Positions 16,161 through 51,198 of a DNA stretch of 51,624 nucleotides are shown here, in pieces. This stretch comes from Bacteroidaceae bacterium (GTDB lineage: Bacteria; Bacteroidota; Bacteroidia; Bacteroidales; Bacteroidaceae): contig JAFYPU010000013.1 of NCBI GenBank assembly GCA_017547385.1, positions 1 to 51,624 of the forward strand, read 5' to 3'. The position numbers and the translations under genes are program-made. Positions within the stretch are counted from its first letter, which is position 1, and every line of letters begins with the position of its first letter. The notes under the pieces are model-generated. The model had not been told where the DNA came from, did not search any database, and worked only from the letters and a program-made list of their open reading frames with translations.

Positions 16161-16232
16161 TGGTCCATGGTGTAATGGTAGTCACTACAGGTTTTGGTTC
16201 TGTCAGTCAAGGTTCGAATCCTTGTGGACCAA
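16161..16232 (+). tRNA. tRNA-Gln (anticodon TTG)
   Basis: The acceptor arms TGGTCCA and TGGACCA pair perfectly, with discriminator A. The anticodon arm ACAGG/TCTGT holds loop TTTTGGT, giving anticodon TTG, which reads CAA. The T arm carries GGTTCGAATCC. No CCA is encoded. A terminator follows directly. Confidence 0.95.
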
Positions 16233-45854: not shown

Positions 45855-45862
45855 TTGCCACT

Positions 45863-46291
45863 ATGGATAAGTTTGTACCACATACAATTGCTGCAGAAGA
45901 GTCGTATGAGAGTCATCTGTTGGGAGATGTGAAAGCCGGATTTCCTTCGCCTGCGGAGGATGTACGTGAGAAGTTGGATCTTATCAAGTTGCTGGTTAAA
46001 CACAAAGCGTCAACCTTCTTCTTTCGTGTGAACGGGGTCTCAATGGTGGATGCAGCTATGGATGAGGGCGACATCATTATCGTGGACAGGGCCATTGCAC
46101 CCTATAACAACTGCAAGGCTGTTTGCTTCATTGATGGCGAATATACCGTCAAGCGAGTGGAGATGGGAGATAACAAAGTCCGCTTGATGCCTGCCAATGA
46201 GAATAACACAGCTTATAGGCCCATAGAGGTAACGGCGGAGAACGATTTCATGATTTGGGGCGTCGTTACCTATGTCATCAAGAAGATGTAG
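45863..46291 (+). CDS. umuD: Translesion polymerase V autoproteolytic subunit
   Basis: A 142-residue UmuD protein of the LexA/S24 family, which trims itself on RecA filaments to activate UmuC. I start at ATG 45863. The cleavage region is KAGFPSPAED, with Ala25-Gly26 as the expected cut; the serine is Ser60 in NGVSMVDAAM and the lysine is Lys97 in YTVKRVE, the same numbers as in the E. coli protein. No helix-turn-helix domain precedes it, so it is UmuD and not LexA. Only two bases separate it from umuC. Confidence 0.93.
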   Translation: MDKFVPHTIAAEESYESHLLGDVKAGFPSPAEDVREKLDLIKLLVKHKASTFFFRVNGVSMVDAAMDEGDIIIVDRAIAPYNNCKAVCFIDGEYTVKRVEMGDNKVRLMPANENNTAYRPIEVTAENDFMIWGVVTYVIKKM

Positions 46292-46293
46292 CT

Positions 46294-47559
46294 ATGTTTG
46301 CCCTGGCCGATTGTAACAACTTTTTTGCTTCTTGCGAGCGGGTGTTTCGCCCCGATTTGCAGGGAAAACCCGTCATTGTTTTGTCGAACAATGACGGTTG
46401 TGCCATTGCCAGGAGCAACGAAGCCAAGGCCCTGGGTATAAAGATGGGTGCACCGTTTTTCAAGATAAGAGATATTGTCAGGAGGCACAATGTGGCAGTG
46501 TTCTCCGGAAATATGGCCCTATATGGTGATATGTCGCAGAGGGTTCGTTGGGTGCTGGAAGAGTTTGCCCCCGGCATCGAGGTCTATTCCATCGATGAGG
46601 CATTCCTGGATCTCAGGGGGATGAAAAATATAGACTTTGATGCGTATGCGAAGCGCATCTCTGCACAATGTTGGAAGATGACTTCTATCCCGGTTTCGGT
46701 GGGCATCGCTCCGACCAAGACGCTTGCCAAGATAGCCTCGAAACTCTGCAAGCAATATCCGAAACTGAGAGGCGGTTGCTACATGTATCGCCCGCAGGAC
46801 ATCGAAAAGGTGTTGCGCAAGTTTCCGATAGAAGATGTTTGGGGCATCGGGCGTCGCACTGCTCCGAAATTGAAAGCAAGGGGTGTCAATACGGCATACG
46901 AGTTTACGCAAATGCCGGAAGGCGTTGTGCGGATGATGCTTGGCATTGGTGGTGTCAGAACATGGAAAGAACTGCGAGGCATCCCTTGTCTGGAATTTGA
47001 AGACGGATTTGAGGCAAAGCAGTCGATATGCGTTTCGCGCAGTTTCTCTTCCGAGATATATGAGGTGAAGGAGTTGCAGGAGCAAATTGCCAACTTCGCT
47101 TCTGCCATGGCAAGCAAGTTGCGCAAGCAGCAGTCGGTAACGTCGGAAATGGTGGTGTTCGCCTATACCAATCGTTTCAGGGAGGATGTGCCGCAGATAC
47201 ATGCCAACACCCTTGTGCCATTCATCACTCCCACAGCCGAGGAGCGCATCATCATTGCGCAGGCGGTGAGTGCTGCCAAAACCCTGTTTAAGCAAGGCTT
47301 TGGATATAAGAAAGCGGGAGTGATAGCCACGAAGATAGTTTCCGAGAAGCATGTGATGCACTCGTTGTTTGAAGACCGGGAAGCAGTGGAGCGCGAACAC
47401 AAAATAACTTCAGCCCTTGATGCCATCAATGCTGCCTTTGGCAAAGGAACCATCAAATTGGCTGTTCAAGGAAGCGGAGAGATAAAGTCGTCGAGTGAAA
47501 ATCAGTCGCCGCACTACACGACGCGATGGAGCGATATCCCTCTGGTAACGGTCAAATAG
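46294..47559 (+). CDS. umuC: Translesion DNA polymerase V catalytic subunit
   Basis: A 421-residue Y-family polymerase. I start at ATG 46294, two bases after the umuD stop. The catalytic residues are in MFALADCNNFFASCERVF (Asp6) and YSIDEAFLDL; VSVGIAPTKTLAKIASKLCK and the HhH region IEDVWGIGRR are typical of UmuC. The C-terminal little-finger region, CVSRSFSSEIYEVKEL onward, is complete. Together with UmuD it performs mutagenic bypass after DNA damage. Confidence 0.94.
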   Translation: MFALADCNNFFASCERVFRPDLQGKPVIVLSNNDGCAIARSNEAKALGIKMGAPFFKIRDIVRRHNVAVFSGNMALYGDMSQRVRWVLEEFAPGIEVYSIDEAFLDLRGMKNIDFDAYAKRISAQCWKMTSIPVSVGIAPTKTLAKIASKLCKQYPKLRGGCYMYRPQDIEKVLRKFPIEDVWGIGRRTAPKLKARGVNTAYEFTQMPEGVVRMMLGIGGVRTWKELRGIPCLEFEDGFEAKQSICVSRSFSSEIYEVKELQEQIANFASAMASKLRKQQSVTSEMVVFAYTNRFREDVPQIHANTLVPFITPTAEERIIIAQAVSAAKTLFKQGFGYKKAGVIATKIVSEKHVMHSLFEDREAVEREHKITSALDAINAAFGKGTIKLAVQGSGEIKSSSENQSPHYTTRWSDIPLVTVK

Positions 47560-47888: not shown

Positions 47889-48096
47889 GTGGCAGATGAG
47901 TGACAGCAAAAGTGCCCATCTGTCACTCATGCAACCATATTGTGTTCAGTAACTTATGTCCTAAAAGTGACAGTATGGCAGTAAAATCCTCAAAAATCAA
48001 TGATGCGCGTGCACGCGCATACGCACGCGTAAGTGTTTAAATAGGAATAATTAGGCGACAGTTAGGCAAAGTGTGGTGGCAGAGATTTTGTGACGG
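47889..48096. repeat. Iteron-like GTGACAG heptamers and an 18 bp palindrome
   Basis: GTGRCAG-like heptamers occur at 47889, 47900, 47967, 48055 (GCGACAG), 48076 and 48090 (GTGACGG), with one inverted at 47920. ATGAGTGACAG (47896-47906) and CTGTCACTCAT (47920-47930) pair perfectly. ATGCGCGTGCACGCGCAT (48003-48020) is a perfect palindrome. No gene is supported here. An origin, a transfer site or a remnant of a mobile element's control region are all possible. Confidence 0.55.
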
Positions 48097-48100
48097 AAAG

Positions 48101-48133
48101 TTTGTTTAATTAAAAATATGTTTCGTACATTTG
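48101..48133 (+). promoter_or_regulatory. Promoter of the structured RNA and four-gene cassette
   Basis: TTTG (48101-48104), 21 bases, then TACATTTG (48126-48133), a full match to the Bacteroidetes consensus. The first gene starts 272 bases downstream. Confidence 0.8.
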
Positions 48134-48136
48134 CGG

Positions 48137-48355
48137 CAAGACGGAGAAATTCCGTTTGCGACATATTGAAATAACGTAGAAGCGTTATGCTCCTCTTGTA
48201 ACTGAAAACCTGAGAAATTTTCAATACGAACAAGAATGGCATAGTGGTTCTCACGCGTATAGCGTGGGCTACTTCCCCCATTTGTTCGTATAGGGTTTTC
48301 TCAGGACCTTCAGTTTAGGATGGGCAACAGTCAGTCCCACGCTTTGTGCATCTAT
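48137..48355 (+). ncRNA. Candidate structured noncoding RNA or leader RNA
   Basis: Starting just after the promoter, the RNA can fold as three stem-loops. One: 48141-48145 with 48151-48155, extended by CAA/TTG. Two: ATAACG (48171-48176) with CGTTAT (48183-48188). Three, a long composite arm: CTGAA (48202-48206) with TTCAG (48309-48313), CCTGAGAAA (48209-48217) with TTTCTCAGG (48297-48305), ATACGAACAA (48224-48233) with TTGTTCGTAT (48282-48291), and CACGC (48252-48256) with GCGTG (48262-48266) at the tip. A fourth pairing, GATG (48319) with CATC (48349), is possible. No reading frame is supported. It could be an independent small RNA (compare with Rfam Bacteroidales-1 and 6S) or a cis-acting leader of the next genes. 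Confidence 0.65.
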
Positions 48356-48405
48356 AAAGTAATAACATAGTTCTTTGGGGATTGAGGAATGAAAAAGTTT
48401 AGGCA

Positions 48406-48624
48406 ATGAATAAATTCGCAAAAGTGTTAATCTCTGTAGGGATTGTGTTTTTCTTCTTTATTGTTTTTGGTGCAATTGTTGGATCAAGAAGTGATGCAGG
48501 GGAAAAGACTCCAGGTGTATTAGGCTTAATTATTTTTGGTGCGCTGATTGGGGCTTTAAGGGCTATTTGGAAGAAATCAAAGGATGAAGATGGTAACGAT
48601 AGCACTTCCGTACTTCAAAAATAG
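48406..48624 (+). CDS. Small membrane protein, function unknown
   Basis: A 72-residue protein with two hydrophobic segments, about 8-29 (LISVGIVFFFFIVFGAIVGS) and 38-55 (VLGLIIFGALIGALRAIW), then a charged tail KKSKDEDGNDSTS. I do not recognise a family. It is the first gene after the structured RNA and stands 11 bases before the J-protein gene, so the two are probably translated together. Confidence 0.65.
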   Translation: MNKFAKVLISVGIVFFFFIVFGAIVGSRSDAGEKTPGVLGLIIFGALIGALRAIWKKSKDEDGNDSTSVLQK

Positions 48625-48635
48625 ACTTTCATATA

Positions 48636-49115
48636 ATGTTTAAGGACTATTATCAGGTTTTAGGCATCTTGCCGTCTGCTACAAAGCAAGAAATAAAGGA
48701 AGCATATAGAAAGATGTCTTTACGATGGCATCCAGATAGAAATCCTGATGTTGATGTTACGGCAATGATGCAAGACATTAACGAGGCGTACAAGATATTG
48801 AACAATGATATTAGTCGGGCAAGATATGATAAGGAGTATCAAGAATTCATTCGACAAGGTGAATGTCGGCAGTCGAAGCATAACGAAAATAAGTCTGAAT
48901 CGTGGGATTATGAATATGAAGTTCATAATGAGGACTTGAAGCGAGACATCAACGAGGCAAGGACATACGCAAAAGACATTGTTGATGAGTTTCTCAAAAG
49001 CCTCAGAGAGACATCTAAGGTCGCTGTTAAAGGGGTTTGGGATGGTGCTTATGGCTATATCATTGGTGGTATTATTGCTACTGTTATATTCGCATTAATC
49101 AGAGCGTGTCACTAA
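48636..49115 (+). CDS. Membrane-anchored J-domain protein
   Basis: A 159-residue protein. Residues 4-66 are a J domain with the HPD motif at 32-34 (LRWHPDRNPD) and the helix IKEAYRKMS; it should stimulate an Hsp70/DnaK ATPase. A charged linker follows (70-135). Residues 139-157 (YGYIIGGIIATVIFALIRA) are one membrane helix at the C terminus, so the J domain would face the cytoplasm. Neither the Gly/Phe nor the zinc domain of true DnaJ is present. The client is unknown. Confidence 0.85.
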   Translation: MFKDYYQVLGILPSATKQEIKEAYRKMSLRWHPDRNPDVDVTAMMQDINEAYKILNNDISRARYDKEYQEFIRQGECRQSKHNENKSESWDYEYEVHNEDLKRDINEARTYAKDIVDEFLKSLRETSKVAVKGVWDGAYGYIIGGIIATVIFALIRACH

Positions 49116-49127
49116 AAAACAACAATT

Positions 49128-50069
49128 ATGAAAGCAAAATTATTAACAGGATTGGTCGTGTCTTCTTTGTTGTTCTTCTCATGCGGACAAAAGAAGGAGA
49201 TTTCTTATAACAAAGTTTCAAGCGTGGATAAAACATATAGTGTTGAGGTGCCCTCATACGCAGTAGAAGGAAAATGTATTGCAGATTTTATGAGTTTTGA
49301 GAATACAAATTCACATCTAATAATTACCATACAGCATATTGACGAAGGGAGTCTTGCAGAGTATATCCGTAACGAGGATGTTACAAACAACTCTTTTTCA
49401 TACAATCTTTTTCAATCATCAGACACCACATATTTCTATAAAATCACAAGGGGAAACAATATGTGGTCAGCTTATGACCTTTATATGCTCAAAAAGTTTG
49501 AAGGAAAGAATTATCTTATCAAAGTCAGTTCTGATGTCCTTGGCCAATCGGAAATGATAGATATGATAAATCACATTTACTCATCAATGAAACTAAAAGA
49601 TGCTGAGGATGAAGATGCTGCGGTCATTGCCGCAGAAGATGTGGATACGCCTCTTCTTGAAAAGACATATTCAACACAATTCTATTCTATCAAATATCCC
49701 AAGCAATGGCAGGTTCAAGAACATTTGGACGAGATGACTGAAGTTTACATTGGCTATCAGCCAGATAATTTTGGATTTACCATGGTCCGGTTTGAAACGG
49801 ATTATTCTCTTGCAGAAGTTAATGCTGAAGGAAATGAGAATGTCCGTCAAGCTGGATTTAGAATATTAGAGGAAAAACAGATGAAGGTTGACGGTGTGAA
49901 ATGCTATAGGGCAATTCAGGCGATAACGATTCAGGGACAAACGGTAAAACATATCTCTTATACTTTCAAGAAGGGCGATATACTTTACAATATCAAGTTT
50001 GGCAGCGTCGCAACAAAAGCACAGGAAACTCTTGCTTCTGAAATCGTAGGTTCGTTCCACTTTAAATAA
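49128..50069 (+). CDS. Lipoprotein with two related domains
   Basis: A 313-residue exported protein. LLFFSCGQ at about 14-21 is a lipobox with Cys19, so it is probably lipid-anchored. Two domains of similar size seem related: VSSVDKTYSVEVPSYAVE (31-48) with following strands, and LEKTYSTQFYSIKYPKQWQV (around 176-196), joined by an acidic linker LKDAEDEDAAVIAAEDVD. Their strand pattern is like PsbP/DUF-type folds, but I cannot name the family. It sits 12 bases after the J-protein gene. Confidence 0.75.
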   Translation: MKAKLLTGLVVSSLLFFSCGQKKEISYNKVSSVDKTYSVEVPSYAVEGKCIADFMSFENTNSHLIITIQHIDEGSLAEYIRNEDVTNNSFSYNLFQSSDTTYFYKITRGNNMWSAYDLYMLKKFEGKNYLIKVSSDVLGQSEMIDMINHIYSSMKLKDAEDEDAAVIAAEDVDTPLLEKTYSTQFYSIKYPKQWQVQEHLDEMTEVYIGYQPDNFGFTMVRFETDYSLAEVNAEGNENVRQAGFRILEEKQMKVDGVKCYRAIQAITIQGQTVKHISYTFKKGDILYNIKFGSVATKAQETLASEIVGSFHFK

Positions 50070-50078
50070 GTCATTAAT

Positions 50079-50531
50079 ATGAAAAGATACTTTATCTTCT
50101 TTATAGCATTGATACCAATGCTATATGTAAATGCTCAAGAAATAAAAACAAAATCAGCATATCAATATGACTATATTGTATGTATGGATAAGGGTGGCAG
50201 CGTTGCTGATGAACTTGCTTGTGGGGGAATTATATTGTTTGCAGAAGCGGGAGGGCAAGAATGTATTTCTATTACAATCGGCGACACGGAAGGATATACG
50301 GGTATAGTACATTCTAAAAAACAGGAATATATAAGTGCGAAAGAAAGGATGACGGTATATCTTGTTATCCAAGAGTTTAATGGGCGTAAAGTTCCTTTGC
50401 AAATATTTGAAGTGTATGATTTGACAAAATCCTCAAATGTGCCGGATTATTTTATGGTCTCGATTTGTAGCGTAACGACAGGGGAGGTTGTGCGGAGTCA
50501 AGCATTTCATAAAATTTCACGCGTAAGGTGA
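50079..50531 (+). CDS. Secreted hypothetical protein
   Basis: A 150-residue protein with a signal peptide (MKRYFIFFIALIPMLYVNAQ, cut about residue 20). The mature part is beta-rich with two cysteines close together (VCMDKGG, ELACGG) and another two later. I see no family motif. It is the last gene of the cassette, 9 bases after the lipoprotein gene. Confidence 0.65.
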   Translation: MKRYFIFFIALIPMLYVNAQEIKTKSAYQYDYIVCMDKGGSVADELACGGIILFAEAGGQECISITIGDTEGYTGIVHSKKQEYISAKERMTVYLVIQEFNGRKVPLQIFEVYDLTKSSNVPDYFMVSICSVTTGEVVRSQAFHKISRVR

Positions 50532-51079: not shown

Positions 51080-51198
51080 CTTTTTATATAAATTATAAAC
51101 TGCAAACAATGAAGTGGGGTGTTTCCGTCTTGCCGATAATGCAATATCTTTTTCCGGAAAAGCAAGCGTGGAAAGACCGTGCTTGATTGTTTACGGTG

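Follow-up and report, generated by a model that had tools for sequence, protein, structure and literature searches.

The leader in front of a four-gene cassette in a Bacteroidaceae genome is, judged by comparison with its relatives, one copy of a large and divergent Bacteroidota RNA family with its own promoter. The family is apparently undescribed and sits at a fixed distance ahead of unrelated genes. We consider it rather likely that the cassette mRNA begins with this leader, which would belong to a family of cis-acting RNA switches spread over the Bacteroidota; such a family would probably act as a shared on/off translational switch for mostly exported proteins. Three things are conserved by comparison. 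The first is the promoter followed by a core, some 170 nt long, whose helices covary and which contains a 5' pseudoknot. The second is a 3' element of the CAGUUCC type; its partner is the loop of the last hairpin, which keeps a fixed distance ahead of the start codon. The third is a choice of partners in which a strand called B' pairs with either B or A', while A' otherwise closes the core together with A.

Bacteroidota is a dominant phylum of the gut, and to our knowledge its cis-regulatory RNAs are poorly known. With a family of this kind ahead of exported proteins, many surface and secreted proteins that are so far unexplained would come under common control, and there would be a definite sensor, signal and regulon to look for. 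It would further mean that genes transferred between gut bacteria, a beta-lactamase gene included, can carry a ready-made regulatory leader.

Positions below are those of the window, which is the whole stretch of 51,624 nucleotides that was analysed. Two covariance models were used for the family, R1 built from 68 sequences and R2 from a wider set of 73. The parts of the leader are the following.

48101 to 48133, plus strand: Bacteroidota-type promoter, TTTG at 48101-48104 and TAnnTTTG at 48126-48133, read directly from the sequence
48141 to 48155, plus strand: 5' hairpin ACGGA/TCCGT ahead of the core, from sequence and computed fold
48176 to 48347, plus strand: core matched by the covariance models (R1 149.2 bits, E 8.5e-31; R2 147.7 bits)
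48180 to 48185, plus strand: element A, AAGCGT, with partner A', ACGCTT, at 48339-48344 (own-versus-swapped pairing test)
48187 to 48201, plus strand: upstream ORF AUG-CUC-CUC-UUG-UAA (MLLL and stop)
48194 to 48199, plus strand: pseudoknot strand TCTTGT, with partner ACAAGA at 48230-48235 (own-versus-swapped pairing test)
48200 to 48206, plus strand: 5' strand of P2, partner at 48309-48315 (fold; changes on both sides in 6 of 7 pairs)
48209 to 48217, plus strand: 5' strand of P3, CCTGAGAAA, with partner TTTCTCAGG at 48297-48305 (fold and covariation)
48225 to 48233, plus strand: 5' strand of P4, TACGAACAA, with partner TTGTTCGTA at 48282-48290 (fold and covariation)
48250 to 48268, plus strand: central hairpin, B CTCACGC at 48250-48256 and B' GCGTGGG at 48262-48268 (swap test); the alternative partner of B' is A', here CCCACGC at 48336-48342
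48331 to 48338, plus strand: kissing element TCAGTCCC, with partner loop GGGATTGA at 48378-48385 (pair score 18.5)
48371 to 48389, plus strand: last hairpin, which holds the kissing loop and lies 16 nt ahead of the start codon

A sequence-only reading of this DNA had proposed a full promoter followed by about 215 bases of structured RNA without a reading frame, folding into three arms with long perfect pairings, in front of a four-gene cassette. Most of this was borne out. Both promoter boxes can be read, and they correspond to TTTG/TAnnTTTG, which we take to be the Bacteroidota promoter consensus. An exact -7 box TAnnTTTG, searched for 25-80 nt upstream of the core, is present in 132 of 165 non-redundant copies of the family as compared to 10 of 165 in an equal control stretch further up. 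The segment 48139-48360 folds with -82.5 kcal/mol (z -7.3), which none of 200 shuffled sequences equalled; the long pairings 48209-48217/48297-48305 and 48225-48233/48282-48290 are present, and the cassette follows from 48406. The folding into arms thus stands, but a count of three is too simple, as comparison supports pseudoknots and alternative pairings. The leader is also longer than proposed: with the final hairpin it extends to about 48389, and promoter and leader RNA together span 48101-48389. The claim that it lacks a reading frame does not quite hold, since a four-codon ORF is found at 48187-48201.

At the place of the 5' hairpin other members that were inspected have a hairpin of different sequence. 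Twelve bases just past the promoter, CGGCAAGACGGA at 48134-48145, recur on the minus strand at 51124-51135 at the far end of the cassette region. A UmuD/UmuC-type translesion polymerase pair (45860-47556) lies directly upstream of the leader.

The source genome has three copies by DNA search. With R1 it has five at E≤1e-5 and eight at E≤1e-3, the three weakest at 6e-4 to 9e-4, and with R2 at least seven. Six more copies came from plasmid records of Prevotella, Bacteroides, Phocaeicola and Parabacteroides, one from phage records and ten from viral contigs, and a pattern scan of genome contigs gave at least 117 stretches. It should be noted that this pattern requires an intact central hairpin, and the alignment called A2 is therefore biased towards that hairpin. 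Matches to R1 were found in 123 of 392 sampled Bacteroidales genomes and in 19 of 392 genomes sampled across the phylum. The corresponding figures for R2 are 173 of 392, covering 104 of 205 genera, and 53 of 392, six of these genomes being from outside the class. The highest copy number was 14, reached with R1 in three of 30 genomes which had been chosen for having matches. In surveys of more than 40 genomes at most seven candidates were scored per genome, so that copy numbers from these are floors. The contig of one copy (L084) carries the label Roseburia (Bacillota), which is most likely due to misbinning.

The statistics below rest on 224 matches, which remained after 33 rows had been dropped, and on the 165 of them left after removal of near-duplicates. 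The dropped rows are 19 antisense shadows, one weak second match in L034, and 13 truncated, cut-off or chimeric copies (the first copy of L015, and L021, L042, L064, L066, L075, L076, L083, L103, L105, L125, L169 and L231).

The inability of the sequence-only reading to place the RNA in a named Rfam family agrees with our scans. Rfam 15 found just a tRNA at 16161 in the window, and for 47900-48600, taken to E 10, it gave RMST_10 and PhrS alone, both far below the gathering score. Five other members, most of them divergent (L123, L145, L209, L214 and L230), had no match in Rfam 15 at E≤1. Membership of 6S-flavo, Flavo-1, Bacteroidales-1, Bacteroides-1 or the Rfam riboswitches was rejected as none gave a match at gathering score. 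The RNA is thus absent from Rfam 15, and in kind it is a cis-regulatory leader RNA with an unusual regulon. 6S RNA has a closing helix and a long interrupted arm and is about 180 nt long. The present family resembles it, and 6S-flavo (RF01685), in all three respects, but differs in having no match to the covariance model, in its pseudoknot, in its position ahead of genes and in its occurrence in up to 14 copies per genome.

The literature searched gave no recognisable description of the family. Passages of PMC8040213, PMC9723704, PMC2864571 and PMC10994844 describe no motif that could be matched. Two motifs of Weinberg 2010, Bacteroides-2 and GUCCY-hairpin, have no Rfam number, and Bacteroides-2 is reported from one sequenced organism. 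An earlier unnamed listing may exist, for example as Bacteroides-2 or as a human-microbiome candidate in PMC8040213. The closest in kind are the orphan riboswitch and leader motifs of Rfam and of the Bacteroidetes set of Weinberg 2010. They share with this family a structured leader, a pseudoknot, a kissing pair, a platform near the start codon and several copies per genome. The family differs from them in lacking an Rfam match, in standing ahead of unrelated and mostly exported genes, and in its tandem and gene-less copies.

The homologues show the covariation that a conserved RNA structure predicts. In alignment A2 96.3% of the cells are paired, and 326 are changed on both sides, against 107.5 (sd 8.1) when shuffled and 16-55 when the partner strand is slid along. 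The changes are concentrated in P2, P3 and P4. P3 is paired in 100% of the cells with changes on both sides in 3 of 7 pairs, and P4 in 87.3% with such changes in 6 of 6 pairs. The versions of P3 include CGUAGG, CCUGAG, CCUAGG and CGUGAG, each with a matching partner. The closing helix has one pair changed on both sides and the central hairpin none; both are nearly invariant in A2.

For the remaining pairings we used a swap test in which the strand of each copy is paired with its own partner or with the partner from another copy. The kissing pair, UCAGUCCC/GGGAUUGA in the window, scored on average 14.64 with its own partner as compared to 12.17 when swapped (sd 0.16, maximum 12.53 of 60 swaps, n=165), and compensated versions such as CAGUGCC/GGCACUG, CGGUUCC/GGAACCG, AACCC/GGGUU and UUGCCUG/CAGGCAG occur. 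For the 5' pseudoknot the values are 14.47 and 13.11 (sd 0.17, maximum 13.52 of 60, n=165). The support for the closing helix, the central hairpin and the alternative pairing comes from the divergent copies: B:B' scored 18.21 against 16.29 (sd 0.26, maximum 16.95 of 200, n=66), B':A' 18.85 against 17.89 (sd 0.20, maximum 18.5 of 200, n=65) and A:A' 15.96 against 15.02 (sd 0.20, maximum 15.46 of 200, n=65). Over all 157 copies the values are 18.41 and 17.95 for B':A', and 16.57 and 16.09 (maximum 16.33) for A:A', so the excess for these two is small. When RNAalifold was run on A5, the alignment with the greatest diversity (made with MAFFT), it independently picked one helix, B':A'; A5 was therefore left out of the helix counts, and the other helices rest on A2 and on the model alignment.

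The pairings of the central hairpin are mutually exclusive, and the RNA looks bistable. As B' cannot pair with B and A' together, and A' cannot pair with B' and A together, it appears to be bistable by design. A model with two states can be formulated on this basis. In the first state B:B', A:A' and the kissing pair would all be formed, the compact part of the leader would reach the border of the ribosome landing site, and translation of the gene behind it would be poor. In the second state B':A' would be formed with the kissing element engaged, which would free the last hairpin and allow the gene to be translated. Our assignment of the second state as "on" is a guess, scarcely better than tossing a coin.

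Two exclusive folds linked to an expression platform are what is asked of a riboswitch, and here they were found by comparison alone. In a classical ligand riboswitch the core would be the aptamer, binding a single small molecule or a signalling nucleotide, and the kissing hairpin would be the expression platform. The highly conserved stretches, the pseudoknot and the mutually exclusive pairings are as expected for such an RNA, and so are the platform at a fixed place ahead of the start codon and the presence of many copies in one genome. We nevertheless find it doubtful, as the first genes form no coherent pathway (at most 4 of 108 belong to any one Pfam family), no Rfam riboswitch matches and no candidate ligand can be put forward. 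Since the genes under control are mostly exported though unrelated, a general signal, such as the state of the envelope, of export or of translation, would for the cis-acting switch that we favour be likelier than a pathway metabolite.

A signal from translation could enter through the short upstream ORF. An AUG or GUG is found at the place of GCGUUAUGC in 132 of 165 copies, and in 128 of these 132 the ORF closes within at most nine codons; four are unclosed within 30. In 65 copies a stop triplet in P3 is in frame, and 24 of the 65 have an earlier stop too; in 66 copies the P3 triplet is out of frame, and 62 of these have an earlier stop (one copy in this comparison has no recognised P3). The difference has a Fisher p of 1.1e-12, which is too small as the copies are related. 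Closure of the ORF thus appears to be selected, since an earlier stop is present when that in P3 is out of frame. A translation-sensing attenuator, in which ribosomes on the upstream ORF hold the leader open or closed and so read initiation or stalling, would explain why closure is kept against the reading frame and why the ORF overlaps the pseudoknot strand and adjoins A. We regard this reading as unlikely. An AUG or GUG is missing in 32 non-redundant copies, among them all of the 17 examined copies that come from outside Bacteroidales (one further copy has an N there); seven of the start-less copies have a TTG-like triplet. The peptides vary (MLIL, MLILYLKT, MLISKSGT, MLFLRV, MSSSCVYKA and others), no conserved stalling peptide or codons were found among the upstream ORFs read, and frame closure could merely keep ribosomes off the fold.

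The upstream ORF as a universal mechanism was therefore rejected, as it is missing from one branch, and the absent starts make it an addition to the core mechanism rather than a part of it. For the cis switch this would mean that in one lineage an ORF of at most nine codons, overlapping the pseudoknot strand and starting beside A, could let ribosome loading tip the balance between the two states. The leaders of tetQ (CTnDOT) and of the erm genes are leader-peptide attenuators. The present family resembles them in having a short upstream ORF within a region that must refold and in the occurrence of some copies on mobile elements (blaMUN-1 in L006), whereas here the peptide is unconserved, the ORF is missing from one branch and the first genes are mostly not resistance genes.

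The sequence-only reading had left open a cis regulator or a free-standing RNA; both have support, and cis is the better option in view of the placement ahead of genes. An ATG-started ORF of at least 60 aa begins within 160 nt downstream in 137 of 165 non-redundant copies. The start is 160-300 nt away in 12 of 165, none is found within 300 nt in 11 of 165, and 5 of 165 have too little flank. Among copies with enough flank the same rule gave 136 of 159 downstream but, applied to the antisense of the upstream flank, 32 of 159. The spacing is tight, as the distance from the end of the core to the start codon has a median of 50 nt (quartiles 44-54). In the 72 gene-bearing copies with a kissing score of at least 15, the end of the kissing partner, which is in most cases the loop of a hairpin, lies a median of 22 nt (quartiles 19-25) before the start codon; only these 72 of the 137 gene-bearing copies reach that score. 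The partner is enclosed by a stem of at least 5 bp in 53 of the 79 copies scoring at least 15, against 10.6 expected. Gene-less copies have lower kissing scores (13.0, n=11) than gene-bearing ones (15.0, n=137; one-sided p 0.027).

This tight spacing, with a kissing hairpin just ahead of the start codon in many copies, argues against a trans-acting small RNA that stands alone and whose downstream gene is either independent or reached by read-through, and we consider such an RNA quite improbable. No terminator-like site was found at the end of the window leader, which also speaks against it, though there is one inside the core: a plus-strand site at 48264-48281, a stem with a T-rich tail, one of 4 sites in the scanned stretch where 1.0 (sd 1.2) were expected. 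Because of this site transcriptional attenuation may also apply. What a trans-acting RNA would account for is the arrangement of some other copies. L123 (145-1474; contig labelled Rikenellaceae) has a tandem array of five RNAs spaced by about 300 nt, with no plausible gene between them; the promoter box is exact in four of the five. In L126 two RNAs in a row precede one gene. A pure cis switch leaves these, and the 11 of 165 copies without a nearby ORF, unexplained. The existence of tandem and gene-less copies suggests that some of them may function on their own, as decoys for instance, beside those that would work as cis switches.

The genes of the cassette behind the window leader are the following.

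48406 to 48624, plus strand: gene 1, membrane protein of 72 aa, no Pfam match above the curated cut-off
48636 to 49115, plus strand: gene 2, DnaJ-domain protein (Pfam DnaJ, 1.3e-21)
49128 to 50069, plus strand: gene 3, lipoprotein-like, with a PsbP_2-like C-terminal half (PF18933, E 1.2e-5, 25.9 bits, just below the curated cut-off of 27)
50079 to 50531, plus strand: gene 4, exported-looking, family unassigned, with no match in Pfam, PADLOC or NCBIfam at the thresholds applied

A protein similar to that of gene 1 follows the truncated RNA copy in L021. A defence cassette was rejected, as the four proteins gave no convincing PADLOC match (best E 0.0039); for the first genes of the family the PADLOC matches are scattered, at most 2 of 108 per family. 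Among the 108 first genes scanned, which are the 109 first genes without that of L123 (probably spurious), no Pfam family has more than four members, and a rule of one protein family as cargo was therefore rejected. They include HtrA-type and aspartyl proteases, BspA repeat proteins, TPR proteins, cyclic-nucleotide-binding proteins, a zinc-ribbon group and one beta-lactamase.

What many of the first genes have in common is that they look exported. By a home-made rule (not SignalP) that asks for a hydrophobic N-terminus without a later membrane span, 73 of 109 first genes are exported-looking as compared to 156 of 717 neighbouring ORFs (odds ratio 7.3, Fisher p 2.6e-20), the background being ORFs of at least 70 aa, some of them spurious. 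A lipobox is found in 34 of 109 against 63 of 717. A hydrophobic N-terminus is found in 79 of 109 against 173 of 559 when the background is raised to at least 100 aa. Gene 1 of the window has a second, later membrane span and is outside the 73. We put forward, tentatively and with rather less than even confidence, that the family is an ancient phylum-wide class of bistable pseudoknotted switches that governs a regulon, the "secretome", in Bacteroidota. A sensor RNA common to all copies would place unrelated exported proteins under one signal, would have spread with and without mobile elements, and would have acquired a ribosome-sensing ORF in one lineage. If true, this would be a new sensory RNA class.

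The occurrence on mobile elements raises the question whether the element works as DNA, as a folded recombination or cassette site like those of integrons that is transcribed by chance. Copies on plasmid and viral contigs, Mob_Pre among the upstream genes (6 of 93), and copies chimeric or truncated near the central hairpin (L100, L232, L021, L083) would fit with this. The integron attC site is a long imperfect hairpin tied to mobile cargo and located 3' of the cassette gene. The present element is alike in being a long imperfect hairpin associated with mobile cargo, but it lies ahead of the gene with its own conserved promoter, and a position 3' of a cassette gene was rejected since an ORF start follows within 160 nt in 137 of 165 copies. 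Conservation of the promoter goes together with that of the RNA, many of the paired positions are G-U, the upstream genes are mostly of unrelated kinds, and ordinary homologous recombination in the most conserved stretch accounts for the chimeras. A DNA-level element is in our view very improbable, and the leader RNA remains the preferred reading. An upstream gene was in reach in 94 of 165 copies, and one spurious ORF of L123 was left out; apart from Mob_Pre no family among the 25 listed of 128 has more than two members, and an association with mobilisation genes as a rule was rejected on the same 6 of 93.

In L006 (4001-5126), from a Bacteroides uniformis plasmid, the RNA stands directly behind mobV and heads a beta-lactamase gene with the annotation blaMUN-1. 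L232 (823-2441) has two copies about 1.4 kb apart with identical 5' halves, the second with a foreign 3' half and broken helices; L100 resembles this type of chimera, and in L021 and L083 the copy breaks off close to the central hairpin. It seems that promoters and cargo are reshuffled by recombination within the conserved middle. In L105 (1-111), L120 (1213-1387) and L208 (574-753) the RNA is followed by a shared stretch of the TTTGATACCG.AAAGTTCCC type with no gene directly behind, and this stretch is perhaps the end of a mobile element.
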